Origin: Vallicoccus soli
GTDB lineage: Bacteria; Actinomycetota; Actinomycetes; Motilibacterales; Motilibacteraceae
NCBI RefSeq assembly: GCF_003594885.1
Contig: NZ_QZEZ01000011.1
Location: 1-64,000 of the forward strand
Length of the DNA: 64,000 nucleotides
Reading direction: 5' to 3'
Shown here: in pieces, positions 50,107 to 60,247 of the stretch
Layout: each line of letters opens with the position of its first letter
Position numbering within the stretch: the stretch's first letter is position 1
Notes under the pieces: generated by a model
The model's database searches: none
What the model was told of the DNA's origin: nothing
Seen by the model: the letters and a program-made list of their open reading frames with translations, nothing else
Translations under genes and position numbers: made by a program

Positions 50107-50820
50107 GTGGACGAGGTGCGCGCCGGACGCGTCGAGCAGCTGTGGGTCTACCCGGTGAAGTCGCTCGGGGGGCAGCGGGTCGCCGCGACCCGCGTCGGCC
50201 GCACGGGCCTGGACGGCGACCGCGCCTGGGCCGTCGCGACGCCCGAGGGGGAGCGGCTCACCGCCCGCGCCGCCCCCGGGCTGCGCGCGGCGGCCGCGGC
50301 GGTGCCCGAGGTCCCCGCGGGCGGGGCGGGGGGCGAGGGCCCCGCGGTGCGCGTCGGCGCCGGCCCGGCCCGCACCGGCGCCGGGGCCGAGGCGGCGCTC
50401 GCGGAGCTGGTCGGGCGGCCCGTACGGCTCCTCGCGGCCGAGGACGGGGCGACCCACGCCGACGTCGCGCCGGTGCACCTGGTGTCCCGGGCCGCCCTGG
50501 CGGCCGCGGCGGGCGTCGACCACGCCGGGCACGACGCCGCGTGCCCGTGCTCGCACGAGGACCCGCGGGCCAACGTCGTGCTCGACCTCGAGCTGCCCGG
50601 CGGCGGCGACGAGACCGGGCTCGTCGGGGCGGAGCTGGCCCTGGGCGCGGCGCGGCTGCGCGTCACCCGCCGGCCCAAGCACTGCCTCGGGGTGTACGCC
50701 GAGGTGCTCGTCCCGGGCGCGGTCGCGGAGGGCGACCCGGTGCGGGTGCTCGCCGGTCGTGGCGGGGACGGGCGGGGTGCCGGGGAAACGCCCTCGGGGA
50801 CCGTCGGGGCCAGCGACTAG
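50107..50820 (+). CDS. MOSC domain protein
   Basis: 237-aa protein with the MOSC_N beta-barrel ([32 protein letters not shown]) and the MOSC core ([49 protein letters not shown]). MOSC proteins bind molybdenum cofactor sulfur ligands; the Cys in KHCLGVY is at the place expected for the family, and an extra [10 protein letters not shown] cluster is present. The likely role is oxidoreduction or sulfur transfer with Moco. The GTG at 50107 is leaderless by position: TAGCGT 50094-50099, 7-base spacer. Its TAG stop is part of the thrS -10 hexamer. Confidence 0.85.
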
Positions 50821-50823
50821 CCT
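50818..50823 (+). promoter_or_regulatory. -10 element of thrS
   Basis: TAGCCT at 50818-50823 shares its TAG with the MOSC stop codon. It gives a leader of about 45 bases containing AGGAGG before the thrS GTG. No T-box specifier or antiterminator was recognised in this short leader. Confidence 0.5.
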
Positions 50824-50875
50824 GGCCCGGCGGGCCGGCGCCCGCACCACCCGCACCACCACCAGGAGGACCTCC

Positions 50876-52858
50876 GTGCCCGACGAGCCCGCCGTGATCA
50901 CGCTCACCGTCGACGGCAGCGAGCGCACGGTGACGACGGGCACCACGGCGGGCGAGCTCTACGCCGAGCGCCGCGACGTCGTCGTCGCACGGGTCGACGG
51001 CGCGCTCGTCGACCTCGACCGGCCGCTGCCCGACGGCGCCGTCGTCGAGGCGGTGCCGATCGACAGCGAGGACGGGCGCGCGGTCCTGCGGCACTCCACC
51101 GCCCACGTGCTGGCCCAGGCCGTGCAGGACCTCTTCCCCGACGCGCGCCTGGGCATCGGCCCACCGGTGCGCGACGGCTTCTACTACGACTTCGACGTCG
51201 CCGTCCCCTTCACCCCGGACGACCTCAAGCGCCTCGAGAAGCGCATGCAGGAGATCGTCAAGCAGGGCCAGCGCTTCTCCCGCCGGGTGGTCACCGACGA
51301 GGAGGCCCGCGAGGAGCTCGCCGCGGAGCCGTACAAGCTCGAGCTCGTCGGGCTCAAGGGGGGCGCCGCCGCGGAGGCCGCCGAGGGCGCCGAGGCGGAG
51401 GTCGGCGGCGCCGAGCTGACGATCTACGACAACCTCGACGCGAAGACCGGGGAGCGGGTCTGGGCGGACCTGTGCCGCGGGCCGCACCTGCCCACCACGC
51501 GACGGATCCCGGCCTTCGCGCTGACCCGCAGCGCGGCCGCGTACTGGCGCGGGAGCGAGAGGAACCCGCAGCTGCAGCGGGTCTACGGCACGGCGTGGGA
51601 GTCCCGCGACGCGCTCAAGGACTACCAGCACCGCGTCGCCGAGGCGGAGAAGCGCGACCACCGCCGGCTCGGGACCGAGCTCGACCTCTTCTCGTTCCCC
51701 GACGAGATCGGCTCCGGGCTGCCGGTGTTCCACCCCAAGGGCGGCGTCATCAAGCGGGTCATGGAGGACTACGTCCGCCAGCGGCACGTGGAGGAGGGGT
51801 TCGACTACGTCGGCACCCCGCACATCTCCAAGCAGGGGCTCTTCGAGACCTCCGGGCACCTGCCGTACTACGCCGACACGATGTTCCCGCCGATGGACCT
51901 CGAGGGCAGCGCCTACTACCTCAAGGCGATGAACTGCCCGATGCACAACCTCGTCTACCGCTCCCGGGGGCGGTCGTACCGCGAGCTGCCGCTGCGGCTC
52001 TTCGAGTTCGGCTCGGTGTACCGCTACGAGAAGTCCGGCGTCATCCACGGCCTGACCCGGGTGCGGGGCTTCGCGCAGGACGACTCGCACTCCTACGTCA
52101 CCCCCGAGCAGGCGCCGGCCGAGATCGAGCACCTGCTGTCCTTCGTGCTCGGCCTGCTGCGCGACTTCGGGCTCAGCGACTACTACCTCGAGCTGTCCAC
52201 CCGCGACGACTCGGACAAGTTCATCGGCTCGCCGGAGCAGTGGGAGACCGCGACCCGGGTCCTGGAGGACGTCGCGACCCGCACGGGGCTCGAGCTCGTC
52301 GCCGACCCGGGCGGCGCCGCCTTCTACGGGCCCAAGATCTCGGTGCAGGCCCGCGACGCCATCGGGCGCACCTGGCAGATGTCGACGATCCAGTACGACT
52401 TCAACCAGCCGGCGCGCTTCGGCCTGGAGTACCAGGCGGCGGACGGCTCCCGCCAGCAGCCGGTGATGATCCACTCCGCGAAGTTCGGCTCCATCGAGCG
52501 GTTCCTCGGGGTCCTCGTCGAGCACTACGCCGGCGCCTTCCCGCCCTGGCTCGCCCCGGTGCAGGTCGTCGGCATCCCCATCACCGACGCGCACGTGCCG
52601 TACCTGCAGGACGTGGCGGCCCGGCTGCGCGCCCGCGGCGTGCGGGTCGACGTCGACGCGTCCGACGACCGCATGCAGAAGAAGATCCGCAACGCCCAGC
52701 GCGCCAAGGTGCCGTTCATGCTGCTCGCCGGCGAGGAGGACGCCGCCAAGGGCGCGGTGTCCTTCCGCTACCGCTCCGGCGAGCAGAAGAACGGCGTGCC
52801 GGTCGACGAGGCGGTCGAGGAGGTCGTGCGCGCGGTCGCCGACCGGGTGCAGGTCTGA
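50876..52858 (+). CDS. thrS: Threonyl-tRNA synthetase
   Basis: 660-aa class II synthetase with a full domain set: TGS (1-62, [20 protein letters not shown]), editing domain with [16 protein letters not shown] and CRGPHLPTT, catalytic core with motif 2 region [18 protein letters not shown], the zinc Cys in [11 protein letters not shown] and zinc His in [12 protein letters not shown], and an anticodon-binding domain (about 555-655, [18 protein letters not shown]). The GTG at 50876 has a perfect AGGAGG 6 bases upstream. An acidic Ala/Glu insert ([17 protein letters not shown]) in the editing region is longer than usual. A HIT hydrolase gene follows, as in mycobacteria. Confidence 0.96.
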
Positions 52859-52863
52859 CGCCG

Positions 52864-53436
52864 GTGGCGGGGGAGCAGCCGGGCGAGCCGCGCGCACCGG
52901 AGGAGCCGCCCGGCCCGGGGGCCGGCGACGCCTTCGAGCGCCTCTGGACGCCGCACCGCATGGCGTACATCACGGGGGAGGGCAAGCCGTCGGGGCCCGG
53001 CGCGGACGACGGCTGCCCCTTCTGCCGGATCCCCGGCCTGCCCGACGAGGAGGGCCTCGTCGTGGCGCGCGGCGAGCGCGCCTACGCGGTGCTCAACCTC
53101 TACCCCTACAACGCGGGGCACCTGCTCGTCTGCCCCTACCGGCACGTCGCGGACTACACCGACCTCGACGCGGCCGAGGTGGCCGAGGTGGGGGCCCTCA
53201 CCCAGCGCGCGATGGCCGTCGTGCGGGCGGTCTCCGCGCCGCACGGGTTCAACCTCGGGATGAACCAGGGGTCGGTCGCCGGCGCGGGGATCGCCGCGCA
53301 CCTGCACCAGCACGTCGTCCCGCGCTGGGGCGGCGACACCAACTTCATGCCGGTGGTCGGGCGCACCCGCGTGCTGCCGCAGCTGCTGCGCGACACGCGG
53401 GCGCTGCTGGCCGGCGCCTGGGAGGGCGCGGCGTGA
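52864..53436 (+). CDS. HIT-family protein (AP4A phosphorylase-like)
   Basis: 190-aa HIT nucleotide hydrolase or transferase. The catalytic triad motif is HLHQHVVPR; GCPFCRIPGLPDEEGLVVAR supplies a zinc-type CxxC; LYPYNAGHLLVCPYRHVADY and FNLGMNQGSVAGAGIAAHLH are typical. In M. tuberculosis the gene next to thrS (Rv2613c) encodes an AP4A phosphorylase of this size, supporting that role here: breaking down diadenosine tetraphosphate, a by-product of aminoacyl-tRNA synthetases. GTG 52864 is 5 bases after the thrS stop. Confidence 0.9.
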   Translation: MAGEQPGEPRAPEEPPGPGAGDAFERLWTPHRMAYITGEGKPSGPGADDGCPFCRIPGLPDEEGLVVARGERAYAVLNLYPYNAGHLLVCPYRHVADYTDLDAAEVAEVGALTQRAMAVVRAVSAPHGFNLGMNQGSVAGAGIAAHLHQHVVPRWGGDTNFMPVVGRTRVLPQLLRDTRALLAGAWEGAA

Positions 53437-53855
53437 GCCCGACGGGGCCGCCCCGGCCGGTGCTCGTGTACGACGGGGACTGCGGCGCGTGCACCCGGCT
53501 CGCCGGGGTCGTGCGCAGGGTCCTGCGCCCCGACGCCGAGGTGGTCGCCTGGCAGCAGGCCGACCTGGCGGCGCTGGGGCTGACGCCGGAGCAGTGCGAC
53601 GCGGCCCTGCAGTGGGTCGACGCGCAGGGCCGGGCGCACGCCGCGCAGGACGCCGTCGCGGCGCTGCTGCTCGCGTCGCGGCCCTGGGCCCGCCCCGCCG
53701 GCGCCGTGCTGCGCCTGCCGGGGGTCAACGCGGTCGCGGGGGCCGGCTACCGCTGGGTGGCCGCGCACCGGCACCTGCTGCCGGGCGGGACCGCGGCGTG
53801 CGCGGTGCCCGCGCCGCCGGCGGACGACGGTCCCGGGGCCCGGCTCAGGCCCTGA
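53433..53855 (+). CDS. DCC-type thiol-disulfide oxidoreductase (DUF393)
   Basis: 140-aa thioredoxin-fold-like protein. The defining motif VYDGDCGACTRLAGVVRR (DxxCxxC) lies at about 12-29; the DUF393 core continues with WQQADLAALGLTPEQCDAAL, QDAVAALLL and AGYRWVAAHRHLLPGG. It should shuttle thiol/disulfide electrons, but no substrate is known. It overlaps the HIT gene by GTGA and converges with the HTTM gene (11-base overlap). DCC and HTTM genes are neighbours in many bacteria (from memory), which suggests a shared function. Confidence 0.88.
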   Translation: MSPTGPPRPVLVYDGDCGACTRLAGVVRRVLRPDAEVVAWQQADLAALGLTPEQCDAALQWVDAQGRAHAAQDAVAALLLASRPWARPAGAVLRLPGVNAVAGAGYRWVAAHRHLLPGGTAACAVPAPPADDGPGARLRP

Positions 53856-54753
53856 CCCGCACCCGCGGCGCGTCGTCGTGCCCGTCGTCGTGCCCGTCGT
53901 CCTGCCCGTCGCCGTCCCCCTCCAGCGCCCCGGCCGCGGCCAGGGCCGCGCGCCGGCGCGCCGGCAGCAGCAGCTCGAGCGGCACGAAGGCGAGCAGGCA
54001 CACGACGAGCGGCAGGAAGTGGATCTCGATCGTCGCCCACGTCGCGGCGTGGAAGAGGACGAAGAACAGCACGACGGCGAGCCGCGCCCGGCCGCGGAGC
54101 ACGAGCAGCACGGGGGAGAGCAGCTCCGCGGCGAGCACGGTCCACTGCCCCGCGCGCAGCAGCCACGGCGGCTCGAGCAGCAGGTCGCCGAGCATCGTGC
54201 CCCGGCGGGTCATGGCCCAGGCGAACACCGCCCCGTTCGCCCAGCCCCAGCCGCCGAACCGCATCTTCGCCCACGCGGACAGGAAGTACGTCGCGACGCA
54301 GGCGACCTGCACGGCGAGCAGCGCCCACCCCGCGGCCTCGCTGCGGGCGGTGTCGCGGGTGCTCGCCCGGCCCACCGTGGCCATGGCGAAGAGCGCCACG
54401 ACGAGGGCGAAGTGGTCGTGGTCGATCTTGCCGTACGACATGCCGATCGACACCCAGTCGAGGAAGCCCACGGCGACGACGAGCCCGGCCAGCCGCGGGA
54501 GCCGGCCCGCGGCCGCCACGAGGCAGCCGACGACGAGGACCGCCTGCAGCGCGTGGACGTACGCCGGGGCCGGGACGGGCAGGTCGAGCAGGCGGCGCAG
54601 CAGCAGCGGCTTGTAGAGGTCCTCGGGGACGTAGCCGTGCGGCACGACGTCGTTGACGAGGAAGGCCATGTCGTAGAGCACGAAGAGGTAGAGCACCGGG
54701 CGCAGCAGGGCCAGGCGCGCCAGCGGCACCGCGGGGGCGAGTGCGGCGCGCAC
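53845..54753 (-). CDS. HTTM membrane protein, copy 2 (vitamin-K-carboxylase-like)
   Basis: 302-aa polytopic membrane protein of the HTTM family, which includes vitamin-K-dependent gamma-glutamyl carboxylase. Conserved blocks are LYKPLLLRRLLDLPVPAP, the loop motif SYGKIDHDHFALVVAL, ARSEAAGW, ATYFLSAWAKMRFGGWGW followed by MTRRGT, ELLSPVLLVL and EIHFLPLVVCLLAFVPLELL. About seven to eight helices are predicted. The acidic Asp/Gly/His tail (DGQDDGHDDGHDD) is encoded by a short repeat. It is a paralogue of the gene at 55,252; each is preceded by a small partner. GTG 54753 is one base after the partner's stop. Confidence 0.85.
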   Translation of the reverse strand: MRAALAPAVPLARLALLRPVLYLFVLYDMAFLVNDVVPHGYVPEDLYKPLLLRRLLDLPVPAPAYVHALQAVLVVGCLVAAAGRLPRLAGLVVAVGFLDWVSIGMSYGKIDHDHFALVVALFAMATVGRASTRDTARSEAAGWALLAVQVACVATYFLSAWAKMRFGGWGWANGAVFAWAMTRRGTMLGDLLLEPPWLLRAGQWTVLAAELLSPVLLVLRGRARLAVVLFFVLFHAATWATIEIHFLPLVVCLLAFVPLELLLPARRRAALAAAGALEGDGDGQDDGHDDGHDDAPRVRVRA

Positions 54754-54754
54754 G

Positions 54755-55255
54755 TCAGCCCTGCCCGCCCGGGACCACGTCCCAGGTGGCGAGCAGCTCG
54801 TCGCTGCGCCCGGCGTCGCGCCCGCCGCGCAGCCGGGTGACCTCCTGGCGGAGCCACAGGCGGACGTACTGCGGCTCGTCGGGGTGCAGCCGGCGCTGCG
54901 CGACGGCGAGGGCGCCGAGCTTCGACGGGTCCGCGACGATCGACGGCAGCTGGCCCTCGACCTCGGCCCGCCCGACGCCGACGCCGCGCGGCGACAGCGG
55001 CACGCGCACGACGTCGCCCTCGGTGGTCAGCGCGTCGACGTACGTCGAGCGGATCTCCCCGTCCAGGTCGACGCCGAAGGCGAACTGCGACATGGGCGCG
55101 AACGGCCAGAGGTCGTCGGTGCCGCGGGCGGTCCCGTAGGTGACGAGGAGCGTCCCGGCGAGCAGCACGGCACCCCGCCAGGCCAGCCCGGCGCGGGACA
55201 GCCGTACGACGCCGCCGACCGGCGCGGTCGCGCCCGCCCCGCGGCCGGCGCTCAC
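54755..55255 (-). CDS. Small membrane-anchored partner of HTTM, copy 2
   Basis: 166-aa protein. A single N-terminal helix (AVLLAGTLLVTYGTA, about 32-46) anchors it; the rest is predicted outside. The mature part has DDLWPFAPMSQFAFGV, a beta segment (IRSTYVDALTTEGDVVRV), and VGRAEVEGQLPSIVADPSKL, aligning with the copy-1 partner at 56,160. No database family is recognised. The stop-start GTGA overlap with the upstream HTTM gene places it inside one operon. Confidence 0.8.
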   Translation of the reverse strand: MSAGRGAGATAPVGGVVRLSRAGLAWRGAVLLAGTLLVTYGTARGTDDLWPFAPMSQFAFGVDLDGEIRSTYVDALTTEGDVVRVPLSPRGVGVGRAEVEGQLPSIVADPSKLGALAVAQRRLHPDEPQYVRLWLRQEVTRLRGGRDAGRSDELLATWDVVPGGQG

Positions 55256-56163
55256 GGCACCGCCACCGGGCGACGGTCCGGGCGGCCGCCGAGGCGGGCC
55301 GGCAGCCAGCGGGCCAGCGGCGACGGCTCCGGCGGCGGCGGGGTGACCCCGACCAGCCGCTCCAGCGGCAGGAACGCCAGCAGGGTCAGCAGGTGCGGCC
55401 AGAAGGCGATGGTGATGCTGACGTAGGTCACGAGGTGGAACACGAAGAACCCCGCGACGACCCGGCGGCGCCAGCGCTCGGAGAGGGCGAAGAGGCCGGG
55501 GGCGAGCAGCTCCATCGCCATGATCCCCCACTGGCTGGCCTGGATCAGCGACGGTGCGCGGCGCAGCAGCTCGTCCGCGACCCACGTGCCCCTGCGGATC
55601 ACCGCGCGGGCGACCGTGCCGCTCGTGACCCAGCCGAGCCCGCCGAAGCGCAGCTTGGCGAACGCCGCGTAGAAGTAGGTGGCGACGGCGCCGAGCTGGG
55701 CCATCCGCAGGGTCCAGCCCGCGGCCTCGCTGCGGGTGGCGGACCGGAGCCGGACCGCGCCGAGGGTCGGCACCACCGCGAGCGCCAGCAGGTAGCCGAA
55801 GCGGTCGTGGTCGACCTTGCCGTAGGAGAAGGCGATGACCTGGTACTCGAGGTAGAGGGCGAACACCGTCCAGCCCAGGACGCGGCTGTAGCGCCCGCGC
55901 ACGCACAGGACGACGAGCGCGCAGGCCAGCAGGACGACGCCCCACTTGCACAGCTGCACGAGCTCCACCGTGGGCGTGGGCAGCGGCAGGACCCGGCCGA
56001 CGAGCAGCGGCTGGTAGAACGCCGGGTCGGCGTGCCCGTGGTACTCCCCGGACGTGTGCAGCACGAGCACGTCGAGCGGGACGAAGAGGTAGACGAGGAC
56101 GCGGAAGACCGCCGCCCGCGCCTCGGGCACCGGGGCGTGCAGCCAGCGCACGAGCCCGCTCAC
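55252..56163 (-). CDS. HTTM membrane protein, copy 1 (vitamin-K-carboxylase-like)
   Basis: 303-aa polytopic membrane protein, paralogue of the gene at 53,845. It shares FYQPLLVGRVLPLPTPT, SYGKVDHDRFGYLLAL, ATRSEAAGW, VATYFYAAFAKLRFGGLGW with VIRRGTWVADELL, ELLAPGLFAL, FFVFHLVTYVSITIAFWPHL and LLAFLPLERLVG. The motif SYGKxDHDxF with its Lys and acidic residues is a plausible active-site loop, but carboxylase activity is not demonstrated. GTG 56163 overlaps the stop of the copy-1 partner (GTGA), and its own stop overlaps the copy-2 partner start. Confidence 0.86.
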   Translation of the reverse strand: MSGLVRWLHAPVPEARAAVFRVLVYLFVPLDVLVLHTSGEYHGHADPAFYQPLLVGRVLPLPTPTVELVQLCKWGVVLLACALVVLCVRGRYSRVLGWTVFALYLEYQVIAFSYGKVDHDRFGYLLALAVVPTLGAVRLRSATRSEAAGWTLRMAQLGAVATYFYAAFAKLRFGGLGWVTSGTVARAVIRRGTWVADELLRRAPSLIQASQWGIMAMELLAPGLFALSERWRRRVVAGFFVFHLVTYVSITIAFWPHLLTLLAFLPLERLVGVTPPPPEPSPLARWLPARLGGRPDRRPVAVP

Positions 56164-56684
56164 CGCGACCACTCCGCGAGCACCTGGCGGCGCTCCTCGC
56201 CGGTCGGCACGGTGTCGACGACGACCGTGCTGACGCGCAGCAGGCGCATGCCGGTCCACGGCTCGGCGCCCGGCTGCAGCCGGTCGCGGGCCTCGGCCAG
56301 CTTCCCGAGCAGCGCCGGGTCGGCCTGGATCCGGTCGAGCTGGCCCTCCACCTCGGCGCGGTTCATCCCGACCGTCCAGGGGTTGAGGTGCGCCGGCTCC
56401 CACGTCCCGCCGTCGGTCCTCGCCTCGATCGCCGCGACGCTGATGGCGCCGGTCGTGTTCGAGCTCGTGGAGTACATGCGGAAGGGGCCGAAGGGGAACG
56501 CGTCGTCGTCGCCCCAGAACGTCCCGGCGGTGAGCAGGACGGCGACGACGAGGGTCACCAGGGCGCGCGCCGCGCGCCCCCCGTCGCCCAGCCGGCGGAC
56601 CGGGTCCGCCGCGGGGCCGCCGCCGGCGACCGCCCCCGCCGGTCCCGCGCCGCTCTGCGTGCCTGCCCGTGCGTCCCCGCTCAC
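56160..56684 (-). CDS. Small membrane-anchored partner of HTTM, copy 1
   Basis: 174-aa protein with a Gly/Ala-rich cytosolic start, one membrane helix (ARALVTLVVAVLLTAGTFWG, about 39-58) and an extracytoplasmic domain: DDAFPFGPFRMYSTSSN, ISVAAIEARTDGGTWEPAHL, VGMNRAEVEGQLDRIQADPA, LLGKLAEARDRLQPGAEPW. It is the first gene of the operon. The GTG at 56684 is leaderless by position: TACCCT 56696-56691 with a 6-base spacer. Together with copy 2 it defines an uncharacterised partner family. Confidence 0.82.
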   Translation of the reverse strand: MSGDARAGTQSGAGPAGAVAGGGPAADPVRRLGDGGRAARALVTLVVAVLLTAGTFWGDDDAFPFGPFRMYSTSSNTTGAISVAAIEARTDGGTWEPAHLNPWTVGMNRAEVEGQLDRIQADPALLGKLAEARDRLQPGAEPWTGMRLLRVSTVVVDTVPTGEERRQVLAEWSR

Positions 56685-56809
56685 CGCCGCAGGGTAACCG
56701 CGGTGCGGGGCCGGCCGGGCGCTGCGCGGCGCGACGTGGCACGGTCGTGACCTGGCCCCGCACCGGCGGGGCGGCGAGGCGCCCGGGGGGCGCGGGGAGG
56801 AGCGGCGGG

Positions 56810-58324
56810 GTGGGGCGGCGCAGCAGGGCCACGGGGCTGCCCGTGGCGGGCGGCCTCGCCGTCCTCGCCGCGTCGGCGGCGGTCGCCACCGCGGCCGCCC
56901 CGGCCCGCACGCCGCCCTCGCCGCCCTCCCCGCCGCTCGTCGTCGCCGGGCTGGCCGGCGGGCCCGGCCTGGGCGTCGCCGCGCTGTCCCCGGCCCAGGC
57001 CGCCGCCGCCGGGCGCTACGTCCCCGGCTCGAGCGTGCTGCGCCGCCCCGACGGGCGCTACGTCACCGGGCCCGGGGCGCGGCCCGGCCCGTACGACCTC
57101 CTCGCCTCCGCCGAGCGCTCGGCGGCCTCGGACCCGGGGCTGGTGCGGGCGGCCGTCGTGGCGGACCGGGCCTGGCTGGCCTCGGGCCGGGTGCCCGGGC
57201 GGCCGGGGGAGGAGCGGCGCGCCGCCGAGCGGGCCCTGCTCGACCTGCGCCTGCTGCAGCGACCGGACGGCGCCGTCGTCGCGGGCCAGCGGCGCCACTG
57301 GGACTACACCTGGCCGCGGGACGCGTCGTTCGCCGCGGTGGCCCTGGCGCGCACGGGGCACCCGGAGGACGCGCTGCGCAGCCTCGACTGGCTCGCCGCG
57401 GTGCAGGAGCCGGACGGCACCTGGGCCGCCCGCTACCGCCCGGAGGACGGGCAGCCGGTGCCGGACGGGCGCCCGTACCAGCTCGACGCGAACGGGTGGT
57501 TCCCCTGGGCCGTCTGGTCGTGGGCGGACAGCCTCGGCGGGGCCGACGACCTCGACGCCGACGGGCGCGCCGCGCTGCTGCGCCTGTGGCCGGCGGTGAC
57601 GGCCGCGGCCGACGCGGCGGCCGGGTCGCTCGACGAGCGCGGGCTGCCCCGCGCGACCCGGGACTGGTGGGAGCTGCCGGTGGACGACGTGACGGTGTCG
57701 ACGTCGGGCGCCCTGCGGTCCGGCCTGCGCGCGGCGGCGGCGCTGGCGGACGGGCTGGGCCGGCCCGACGAGGCGCAGCGCTGGGCCGCGGCCGCGGTGC
57801 GGCTCGACGCGGGCGTGCGCGAGCGGTTCGGCGGGACCGGCTACCGGCGCACGCCCGACGCGGGCAGCGGCGCCGACGCGGGCATGGCCGTGCTCGCGCC
57901 CCCCTTCGCGCCGCCGGACCCGGGCGTGGCGGCCGCGCTGGACGACACCGAGCGCCGCCTGGCCGCGCCCGGCGGGGGGCTGCTCCCGGGGGAGGCGTTC
58001 TCCGGGCCGCGGCTGTCCTGGGTGCCGGCCGCGGGGCAGGTGATGCTCGCCCGCGCGGCGTCCGGGGACGCGCGGGGCGCGCAGCGCTGGGTCGACTGGC
58101 TGCTGGCCGCGCGCACCGTGCTCGGGGCCCTGCCGGAGAAGGTCGACGCCGCGGGCCGCCCCGCGGAGGTCGCGCCGCTGGCCTGGGCGGACGCGCTCTA
58201 CCTGCTCACGCTCGTCGCCCGGGACGAGGGCGTGCCCGCGCCCCCCGTGCCGCGGGGGCCGGCGCCCTCAGCGCAGGCGGCGGAGCAGGTCGGCGGCGAC
58301 GGGGCCGGCGTCGCGGCCCCCTGA
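56810..58324 (+). CDS. Secreted GH15-like glycoside hydrolase
   Basis: 504-aa exported (alpha/alpha)6-barrel protein. The signal peptide is GLPVAGGLAVLAASAAVATA. The barrel shows HWDYTWPRDASFAAVALART, LDWLAAVQEPDGTWAARY, YQLDANGWFPWAVWSWAD, RDWWELPVDDVTVSTSGALR and a C-terminal WADALYLLTLVARDEG, as in glucoamylase and glucodextranase-type enzymes. Likely substrates are alpha-glucans or alpha-glucosides, fitting the carbohydrate transporter downstream. GTG 56810 is chosen because the GGGGAGGAG site precedes it; a longer frame adds an Arg/Gly-rich stretch before the signal. The 3' end overlaps the convergent penicillin-binding protein gene by 57 bases. Confidence 0.82.
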   Translation: MGRRSRATGLPVAGGLAVLAASAAVATAAAPARTPPSPPSPPLVVAGLAGGPGLGVAALSPAQAAAAGRYVPGSSVLRRPDGRYVTGPGARPGPYDLLASAERSAASDPGLVRAAVVADRAWLASGRVPGRPGEERRAAERALLDLRLLQRPDGAVVAGQRRHWDYTWPRDASFAAVALARTGHPEDALRSLDWLAAVQEPDGTWAARYRPEDGQPVPDGRPYQLDANGWFPWAVWSWADSLGGADDLDADGRAALLRLWPAVTAAADAAAGSLDERGLPRATRDWWELPVDDVTVSTSGALRSGLRAAAALADGLGRPDEAQRWAAAAVRLDAGVRERFGGTGYRRTPDAGSGADAGMAVLAPPFAPPDPGVAAALDDTERRLAAPGGGLLPGEAFSGPRLSWVPAAGQVMLARAASGDARGAQRWVDWLLAARTVLGALPEKVDAAGRPAEVAPLAWADALYLLTLVARDEGVPAPPVPRGPAPSAQAAEQVGGDGAGVAAP

Positions 58325-60247
58325 GCCGCCGTCCTCGAGGACCACCGCCACCGCGAGGTCGCCCTGCGCCGCGACGATCCACGCGTGCGTGCGCGGCGGG
58401 ACCTCGGTGCCGTACTCGGCCGTGCCGGTCTTGGCGATCGCCGGCGGCCCCGGCAGGTCCGCGAGCGCGCCGCCGCTGCCGCCGGTGACGACGCCGCGCA
58501 TGAGCCCGCGCAGCGTCCGCGCGAGCCCGGGGTCGAGGGGGCGCGGCGGCACGGCGGCGGGGGCGGCGTCGCCGGTCACGAGCGACGGGCGGCGGTACGT
58601 GCCGTCGGCGACCGTCGCGGCCACGGAGGCCATGGCGAGCGGGCTCGCCAGCACCGTGCCCTGCCCGATGGAGGCCGCGGCCCGCCCGAGCGGCTCCGGC
58701 TGCGCCGGCACCGAGCCGGCGTACGCGCCCAGGCCGAGGCCCGACGCGACGCCCGCCGGCCCCTCGACCCCGAGGCCGTACAGCGCGGCGGCCCCGGGCA
58801 GGGCGCCCGCGGGCAGGTCCTCGGCCAGCCCGACGAAGGCGGTGTTGCAGGACTCCGCGAAGTCCGTGCGGAACGGGACGTCGCCCAGGGCGAAGCCGTC
58901 GACGTTGGTGAACGCCTTGCCCTCGACGACCGCCTCGCCCGGGCAGGCGACGACGTCGTCGGGGTCGAGCCCGCGCTGCAGCAGGGCCGTCGTCGTGACC
59001 ACCTTGAACGTCGAGCCCGGGGGGTACTGCCCGGCCAGCGCGCGGTCCGGCCCGTCGGCCGGGCCGCTGGCGGCGGCGAGCACCGCGCCGGTGCTGGGGC
59101 GCACGACGACGACCCCGCCGGCCCGGCCCCCCAGGGCGGCCTCCGCGGCGGCCTGCACGTCGAGGTCGAGGGTGGTGCCCAGCGGCCGCCCCGGCTCGGC
59201 CCGGAAGCGGTGCAGCACGCGCACGGGCTCGCCGTCCTCGCGCGCGACGAGGCGCACGGACCCGCCGGGGCGCCCGGCCAGGCGCTCCTGGTACGCCCGC
59301 TGGAGCCCCGTCGTGCCGACGTCGTCCACCTCGCTGGCGTACGGCCCCGCCTCGGCGAGCGTCTCGGCGGTCGCCGGGCGGACCGTGCCGAGCACGCCGC
59401 GCCCGAAGTCGGGCGTCGGGGCGAGCGTGCGCTCCCCTGGCGAGGCGATGGTGCCGGGGACGTCGCGCACCTGCTGCTCGACCTCGCGGTACGCCTCCTC
59501 GCGCAGCGTGATCACCGGCACGACCTGCAGCGGGTCGGCCTCGGCCAGGCGCTCCTCGAGCGCGTCGGCGTCGACCTCCAGCACCTCCGAGGCCAGGCGG
59601 CGCAGCGCCGCGCGGTCGCTCGCCCGCTGCGGCTGCACGCCGACCTCGACGACCGGGCGCACCTGCATGAGCGGGCGCCCGCGCGCGTCGAGCACGGGGG
59701 CCCGGGCGGGCAGCTCGCGGAGCCGGGCGAGCCGGGTGCCCTCGGTGAGCGCGGGGTGCACGGTGCGCGGGTCGGCGTGGACGGTCCACCCGTCGCCCTC
59801 GGGCCGGACGAGCACGGTGCCGTCGTAGGTCCAGGTGCCGAGCGAGCGCAGCTCGAGCGCGGCGCGGAACGGCACCGCGCGCAGGCCCTCCGGGTCCGGC
59901 GCCGGGGTGCCGGGCGGCGTCGCCCCGGCGGCGTCGCCCTGCGCGCGGGCGGCCGGCGTCGCGGGCGGGGCGCCCGTGCTGGCCCCCGTCACCTCGGCCT
60001 CGAGGCCGTCGACGCGCAGCGTGCCCGCGACCTCCTCGAGCAGCGCCCCCGCGGCCGCCGGGTCGTCGGTGAGGGCCGCGGCCGCGGCGGGGTCGTCCGG
60101 GCTGCCCGTCCAGGCCTCGAGGTACGCGGTCGCCGCGGCCAGCGCGCCGTCCTCGGACGGCTCCGGGCTCGCGCCGTCGTCGCCGGTGCACCCGGCCAGG
60201 AGCAGGAGCGCGAGCCCGGCGGCGAGCACGGAGGGTGAGGACCGCAT
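58268..60247 (-). CDS. Penicillin-binding lipoprotein with NTF2-like N-terminal domain
   Basis: 659-aa class B-type transpeptidase. A lipobox signal (LALLLLAGC, Cys20) is followed by an NTF2-like MecA_N domain (about 35-170), a dimerisation domain (about 175-330) and the transpeptidase with SxxK Ser412 in PPGSTFKVV, SxN in ESCNTAFVGL and KTGTAEYGT. It should crosslink peptidoglycan outside the membrane; MecA-type relatives can be beta-lactam insensitive, but that cannot be read here. Instead of the usual membrane helix it is lipid-anchored. The ATG at 60247 is leaderless by position: TAGGGT 60260-60255, 7-base spacer, with the hexamer inside the end of the LacI gene. Confidence 0.92.
   Translation of the reverse strand: MRSSPSVLAAGLALLLLAGCTGDDGASPEPSEDGALAAATAYLEAWTGSPDDPAAAAALTDDPAAAGALLEEVAGTLRVDGLEAEVTGASTGAPPATPAARAQGDAAGATPPGTPAPDPEGLRAVPFRAALELRSLGTWTYDGTVLVRPEGDGWTVHADPRTVHPALTEGTRLARLRELPARAPVLDARGRPLMQVRPVVEVGVQPQRASDRAALRRLASEVLEVDADALEERLAEADPLQVVPVITLREEAYREVEQQVRDVPGTIASPGERTLAPTPDFGRGVLGTVRPATAETLAEAGPYASEVDDVGTTGLQRAYQERLAGRPGGSVRLVAREDGEPVRVLHRFRAEPGRPLGTTLDLDVQAAAEAALGGRAGGVVVVRPSTGAVLAAASGPADGPDRALAGQYPPGSTFKVVTTTALLQRGLDPDDVVACPGEAVVEGKAFTNVDGFALGDVPFRTDFAESCNTAFVGLAEDLPAGALPGAAALYGLGVEGPAGVASGLGLGAYAGSVPAQPEPLGRAAASIGQGTVLASPLAMASVAATVADGTYRRPSLVTGDAAPAAVPPRPLDPGLARTLRGLMRGVVTGGSGGALADLPGPPAIAKTGTAEYGTEVPPRTHAWIVAAQGDLAVAVVLEDGGSGGRDAGPVAADLLRRLR

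Follow-up and report, generated by a model that had tools for sequence, protein, structure and literature searches.

Proteins of the HTTM family are common across bacteria, and nearly all of them are uncharacterised. In the vitamin K-dependent carboxylase of blood clotting, GGCX, Lys218 is the base that deprotonates the hydroquinone and His160 lies at the Glu site (PMC12589487, PMC9146348), while Met401 belongs to the vitamin K pocket and is found in the linker between the transmembrane domain and PBD (PMC12589487). A functional two-protein HTTM system is also known genetically, since the processing of SdpC needs SdpA as well as SdpB (PMC6818787), and HTTM proteins occur in linaridin clusters too (PMC9927463). 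Here we describe a stretch of 64,000 nucleotides of Vallicoccus soli (contig NZ_QZEZ01000011.1, positions 1 to 64,000; the window), in which four minus-strand genes encode, twice over, a small protein with one transmembrane (TM) helix, called the partner in what follows, and an HTTM protein. On balance, each partner and HTTM pair is probably a two-subunit membrane enzyme of the GGCX kind, which would use menaquinol and act on an extracytoplasmic substrate. The locus points to an uncharacterised bacterial family of quinone-using protein-modifying enzymes, and its genes and motifs are listed here in window coordinates.

56160..56684, minus strand: partner 1, 174 aa, with a single TM helix followed by a predicted extracytoplasmic mixed alpha/beta domain (GGCX TM9 and PBD-1-like)
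56514..56585, minus strand: TM helix of partner 1, spanning residues 34-57, preceded by an Arg-rich and followed by an Asp-rich stretch
56472..56498, minus strand: FPFGPFRMY (partner 1 residues 63-71), the motif whose Met70 aligns with VKGC 'WHM' and GGCX Met401
55252..56163, minus strand: HTTM 1, 303 aa, polytopic, putative catalytic subunit
55807..55809, minus strand: His119 of HTTM 1, the GGCX His160 equivalent by alignment
55654..55656, minus strand: Lys170 of HTTM 1, by alignment the equivalent of the GGCX catalytic base Lys218
54755..55255, minus strand: partner 2, 166 aa
55076..55108, minus strand: WPFAPMSQFAF motif of partner 2, residues 50-60, with Gln at the position of partner 1 Met70
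53845..54753, minus strand: HTTM 2, 302 aa
54418..54420, minus strand: His112 of HTTM 2, the GGCX His160 equivalent by alignment
54265..54267, minus strand: Lys163 of HTTM 2, the GGCX Lys218 equivalent by alignment
53433..53855, plus strand: DCC1-like thiol-disulfide oxidoreductase, 140 aa, convergent, with an 11-bp 3' overlap with HTTM 2
53481..53492, plus strand: CGAC (CxxC) of the DCC protein, from the sequence

The likeness of the HTTM subunit to the carboxylase is seen both in its predicted fold and in its residues. The AlphaFold2 model of HTTM 1, made with 52 homologues (pLDDT 92.7), has the fold of GGCX, which was the only matching fold of the PDB in Foldseek (probability 1.00, TM-score 0.6); VIA superposed the model on GGCX 48-338 with Z 15.6 and a root-mean-square deviation (rmsd) of 3.9 over 257 residues, the next unrelated entry reaching Z 7.2. 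A profile built from six bacterial VKGC proteins of full length can be aligned with the HTTM over 252 columns (E 1.4e-7), and the Pfam HTTM model (PF05090) matches HTTM 1 and HTTM 2 with 3.5e-6 and 4.9e-5, both just below the gathering score. His119 and Lys170 of HTTM 1 are paired by hhalign with VKGC His128 and Lys186, which phmmer pairs in turn with GGCX His160 and Lys218 (the GGCX chain index plus 31 gives the human numbering). A MAFFT run puts the His160 equivalent one column off, and hhalign places it on His119 and His112. The comparison with the active-site lysine of the carboxylase, proposed in a first-pass annotation of the window, thus shows the polar residues to be kept, the Lys and His equivalents being invariant in 52 of 52 HTTM homologues.

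Direct reading of the sequence agrees with that annotation on the arrangement of the locus, which runs partner 1, HTTM 1, partner 2, HTTM 2 on the minus strand (53845-56684), with GTGA overlaps at the partner 1/HTTM 1 and HTTM 1/partner 2 junctions and a single base between the stop of partner 2 and the start of HTTM 2; the DCC gene converges on this array, as had been described. The window partners have no match in Pfam or NCBIfam, and among 65 partner homologues no convincing Pfam match was found, the DUF5819 model (PF19136) matching 0 of 65.

The pairing of partner and HTTM is obligate. In 198 genomes of the class, 39 matches came from a search seeded with the partner; a second search, seeded with the HTTM and made on species genomes, yielded 46 loci. 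In 76/76 loci (30 fetched with the partner and 46 with the HTTM, the window's own not counted), the HTTM gene is immediately preceded by the partner gene on its own strand. Profile searches placed real partners in 37 genomes, all 37 with an HTTM gene adjoining (a further partner-profile match, in G060 with E 8e-4, was treated as chance and left out), and in the same 198 genomes they showed no full-length HTTM of the window family without its partner. The partner is directly upstream in all 85 distinct modules, 74 of which have an RTGA stop/start overlap. The two proteins coevolve: their distance matrices correlate with a Mantel r of 0.92, a value not corrected for shared ancestry, and in tandem loci, which control for ancestry, the distances of a partner follow those of its own HTTM more closely than those of the other HTTM (6/6). 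The idea of a partner dedicated to the HTTM therefore holds, as the co-occurrence search found no partner homologue without an HTTM neighbour. Natural fusions of partner and HTTM were sought among the loci and none was found, nor were viral or plasmid copies of the window family.

The profiles and models make it likely that the partner is the TM9, linker and PBD-1 of GGCX, encoded apart. Its model (pLDDT 88.7) has one TM helix (34-57) and then a domain made of a beta-hairpin, helices and a second beta-hairpin, and positive-inside charge together with GGCX topology would place this domain and the C-terminus outside the cell. When 993 chains were re-aligned to the partner model with VIA, the eight top PDB entries were all GGCX (Z 3.3-3.6), the matches covering GGCX 400-490 and in one case 355-490, including the TM helix. 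Measured against 80 real-protein control windows, the GGCX/VKGC PBD profile scores 20.1 with the partner profile (null 11.4+-2.4; 0/80 controls as high), and the global alignment sets partner Met70 on VKGC 'WHM' and GGCX Met401. This amounts to weak to moderate evidence that the partner supplies the TM9/PBD-1 feature. The extracytoplasmic partner of the first-pass annotation is accordingly retained as a dedicated protein and reread as the missing TM9/PBD-1 part of the enzyme, probably not a mere accessory. A search of solved structures by sequence returned only designed repeat proteins for one query (A1), by composition, and nothing for another (A2).

In such an enzyme, catalysis would fall to the HTTM subunit, as the transmembrane domain that carries the His and the Lys acting as quinol base, and the partner would supply TM9, the pocket-closing linker and, on the outer side of the membrane, PBD-1 as the first lobe for substrate binding. 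Menaquinol would be oxidised by O2 at the Lys, and the strong base so formed would activate the extracytoplasmic substrate; a first guess would be a Glu-containing protein that is carboxylated. We regard quinol chemistry as an about even prospect and Glu carboxylation as rather doubtful, and the identity of the substrate is offered as a proposal, as is the role of the DCC protein, which may be an optional helper, perhaps a thiol reductant. With the full-length VKGC/GGCX proteins the window module shares the HTTM fold and the equivalents of Lys218 and His160, and it would share a TM9 and PBD-1-like part and, probably, the use of quinol. GGCX and the Paracoccus albus protein WP_271073465 are each encoded by one gene, and in GGCX the HTTM and luminal domains form one chain, whereas the module has two genes, the partner gene first, and separate proteins of 303 and 174 aa.

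A single-TM protein next to an HTTM gene is a wider theme. Nearly all of 28 PF05090 loci of other types (L139-L166) have such a protein just upstream, namely DUF5819, a 'GLDQNWGMFAPNP' type (type D), an 'RFGFQMYSG' type (type M) or SdpA, and on a B. subtilis plasmid DUF5819 is also upstream of an HTTM gene. Profile comparisons link type D with DUF5819 (46.6) and with SdpA (25.6), and the window partners with type M (25.3) and type D (20.3), each score lying above all 80 controls. The DUF5819 and type D profiles gave no direct PBD match, and the apparent relatives of the type M protein among RlmD-like methyltransferases were judged to be chance. In the alignment of HTTM subfamilies, the Lys218 equivalent is kept in all, whereas the His160 equivalent is present only in VKGC, type M and the window family and is replaced by Gly-Asp in the DUF5819-, D- and SdpB-type HTTMs. 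HTTM proteins thus appear to fall into two chemical classes, His plus Lys and Lys only, and the His kept in the window HTTMs puts their family on the carboxylase-like side.

The SdpA-SdpB pair of Bacillus subtilis (sdpABC, yitPOM) resembles the window module in its upstream single-TM protein, its HTTM with the conserved Lys and the partner link through the type D profiles. It differs in that SdpB-type HTTMs have no His at the GGCX His160 position, which the window HTTMs keep, and in that sdpABC has an adjacent toxin gene, whereas the module is flanked by housekeeping genes, with no SdpC-like precursor. The curated NCBIfam models of SdpA and SdpB do not match the window proteins, and TIGR04034 has no match in the V. 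soli genome. The DUF5819-HTTM pairs of Actinobacteria have the same two-gene order as the module, but with QNWxLFAPNP as the partner motif and G-D for the His; moreover, DUF5819 is a named Pfam family and the window partner is not. The open-access text that was searched yielded no paper joining SdpB with the vitamin K-dependent enzymes. It is possible, at somewhat less than an even prospect, that the window partner, type M, type D, DUF5819 and SdpA form one superfamily, all equivalents of GGCX TM9/PBD-1; on this view the carboxylase of blood clotting would be a fused version of a widespread two-subunit class of bacterial enzymes with two chemistries, and SdpAB would act by the same quinone chemistry.

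The two copies in the window are, judging by their sequences, real paralogues: HTTM 1 and HTTM 2 share 42% identity over 253 aa (E 3e-52), and the partners 43% over 110 aa (E 3e-21). In a tree of 72 sequences, the downstream HTTMs of tandem loci form one clade (97/87), with members from the window, Motilibacter and relatives, Kineosporia and one metagenome-assembled genome (MAG), and the upstream ones group with single-copy HTTMs of Intrasporangiaceae, so that the tandem joins two ancient paralogous pairs, only one of which is retained in most lineages. A duplication of its own is seen in one MAG locus, L064. The duplication seen in the first-pass annotation is therefore real and old, a recent local event being ruled out by the tree. 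The motifs reported as common to the partners hold for PFxP and diverge beyond it, as the residues that follow (FRMY vs MSQF) are a clade marker in the partner alignment. At position 70 (numbered on P0001) one line has Met (RMY/RMF) and the other Gln (SQF/SQY); the window has one partner of each type, and it is the partners of the downstream-clade HTTMs that carry Gln in place of Met. As the two lines differ at this predicted pocket residue, the pairs probably act on different substrates or quinones, and the two specificities suggested earlier fit the split.

The convergent gene is a clear member of the DCC1-like (DUF393) family (PF04134, 2.3e-14; CxxC present as CGAC). It shares four bases with the end of the HIT gene before it (window 50759-53855), and so appears to close a thrS-HIT-DCC transcription unit and to lie outside the transcript of the partner-HTTM module, for which an insertion behind thrS-HIT may be the origin. 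DCC genes occur in 81/198 genomes. They adjoin the module in 9/37 module genomes, only a quarter, which is nonetheless far above chance for one gene in a few thousand, and they are absent from 25/37, which rules out DCC as an obligate part of the module: the link is real but optional. VKOR (PF07884) is in turn absent from 15/37 module genomes. Over all 37, DCC and VKOR tend to exclude each other (p 7e-4, or p 0.028 when counted per genus): 2 genomes have both, 10 DCC only, 20 VKOR only and 5 neither. No such exclusion is seen in genomes without the module, and over all genomes the module is associated neither with VKOR (p 0.36) nor with DCC (p 0.27).

The membrane enzyme related to the vitamin K carboxylase, with its dedicated partner, thus emerges from the analysis in better shape than the thiol and DCC part of the original proposal. 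A VKOR-driven cycle was rejected for this genome, which has no VKOR match, so that a thiol-driven quinone cycle of the VKOR type is not shown here. That DCC stands in as the reductant is a suggestion only, and the respiratory chain could supply menaquinol without DCC or VKOR. Elsewhere, a plasmid of Paracoccus albus carries a bacterial GGCX homologue of full length with a DUF393 (DCC) gene as its divergently oriented neighbour (L187, 964-2832), a DCC gene adjoins a DUF5819-type HTTM pair (G122 C38, 43605-45595), and another is within ~2 kb of an SdpAB-type pair (G140 C71, 301279-304531).

Beside the module, the window has a glucoamylase-like gene on the plus strand and a penicillin-binding-protein-like gene on the minus strand (56669-60247), both assigned by eye from open reading frame translations, whose ends overlap by ~57 bp. 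A substrate gene linked to the module was also looked for in the flanks of the loci, which hold ftsY, amtB-glnB-glnD, thrS, pgsA-like and acyltransferase genes, following taxonomy.

Several observations weigh against a carboxylase-like two-subunit enzyme. Foldseek gave no significant fold for the partner model (best E 0.27), and its VIA match to GGCX (Z 3.6, rmsd ~5) falls within what chance arrangements produce; such a Z alone proves nothing, yet the sole family at the top of the list is that of the neighbouring HTTM gene. The link of the partner with PBD by sequence is marginal and depends on direction, the other direction scoring 18.3 with 2/80 controls as high and the global comparison 14.1 vs 6.1. 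The module lacks the GGCX arch and jelly-roll as well as PBD-2, no linked substrate gene was found in flanks whose conserved neighbours are housekeeping genes, and VKOR was not found in the V. soli genome, which is 98.6% complete. Finally, split HTTM systems such as SdpAB are known for peptide-toxin processing, not for carboxylation. The pair might process or export a small secreted peptide, such as a toxin or a signal, and do so by some chemistry that is not carboxylation, as would suit the joint need for SdpA and SdpB, the profile path from SdpA through type D to the window partners and the HTTM proteins of linaridin clusters. We consider this unlikely, given the missing NCBIfam SdpA/SdpB match, flanks with housekeeping genes only and no conserved small secreted gene, and the His that the window family keeps and SdpB-type HTTMs lack.

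Slightly less probable still is a redox protein that handles quinones or lipids, oxidising menaquinol or forming disulfides with DCC, and is not a protein carboxylase. The conserved Lys and GGCX quinone fold would serve it, as would the DCC genes beside some modules and their anticorrelation with VKOR, seen only in module genomes; but DCC is missing from most module genomes and both proteins from several, the invariant columns of HTTM and partner include no conserved Cys, and simple quinol oxidation needs no invariant His at the Glu-site position. To the same low degree, the partner might serve only to assemble or stabilise the HTTM and be unrelated to GGCX PBD-1. Strict pairing and coevolution would suit a chaperone subunit equally, and the structural match to GGCX is weak; against this, the position, register and order of elements in the match agree with TM9, linker and PBD-1, and the most clade-diagnostic residue of the partner falls on GGCX Met401.

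If the active site of the HTTM is completed by a separately encoded partner, as we propose for the two-subunit enzyme, an HTTM protein expressed alone would fail, and the missing subunit of each HTTM gene would be the one adjoining it. The partner family, so far unannotated by any Pfam or NCBIfam model, gains a testable role, and the module would reduce the active site of GGCX to a minimal model in two pieces, in which the Met/Gln switch between the paralogous lines would be a natural experiment on the quinone or substrate pocket. Quinol-dependent protein modification is thereby suggested in common Actinobacteria that have no VKOR.

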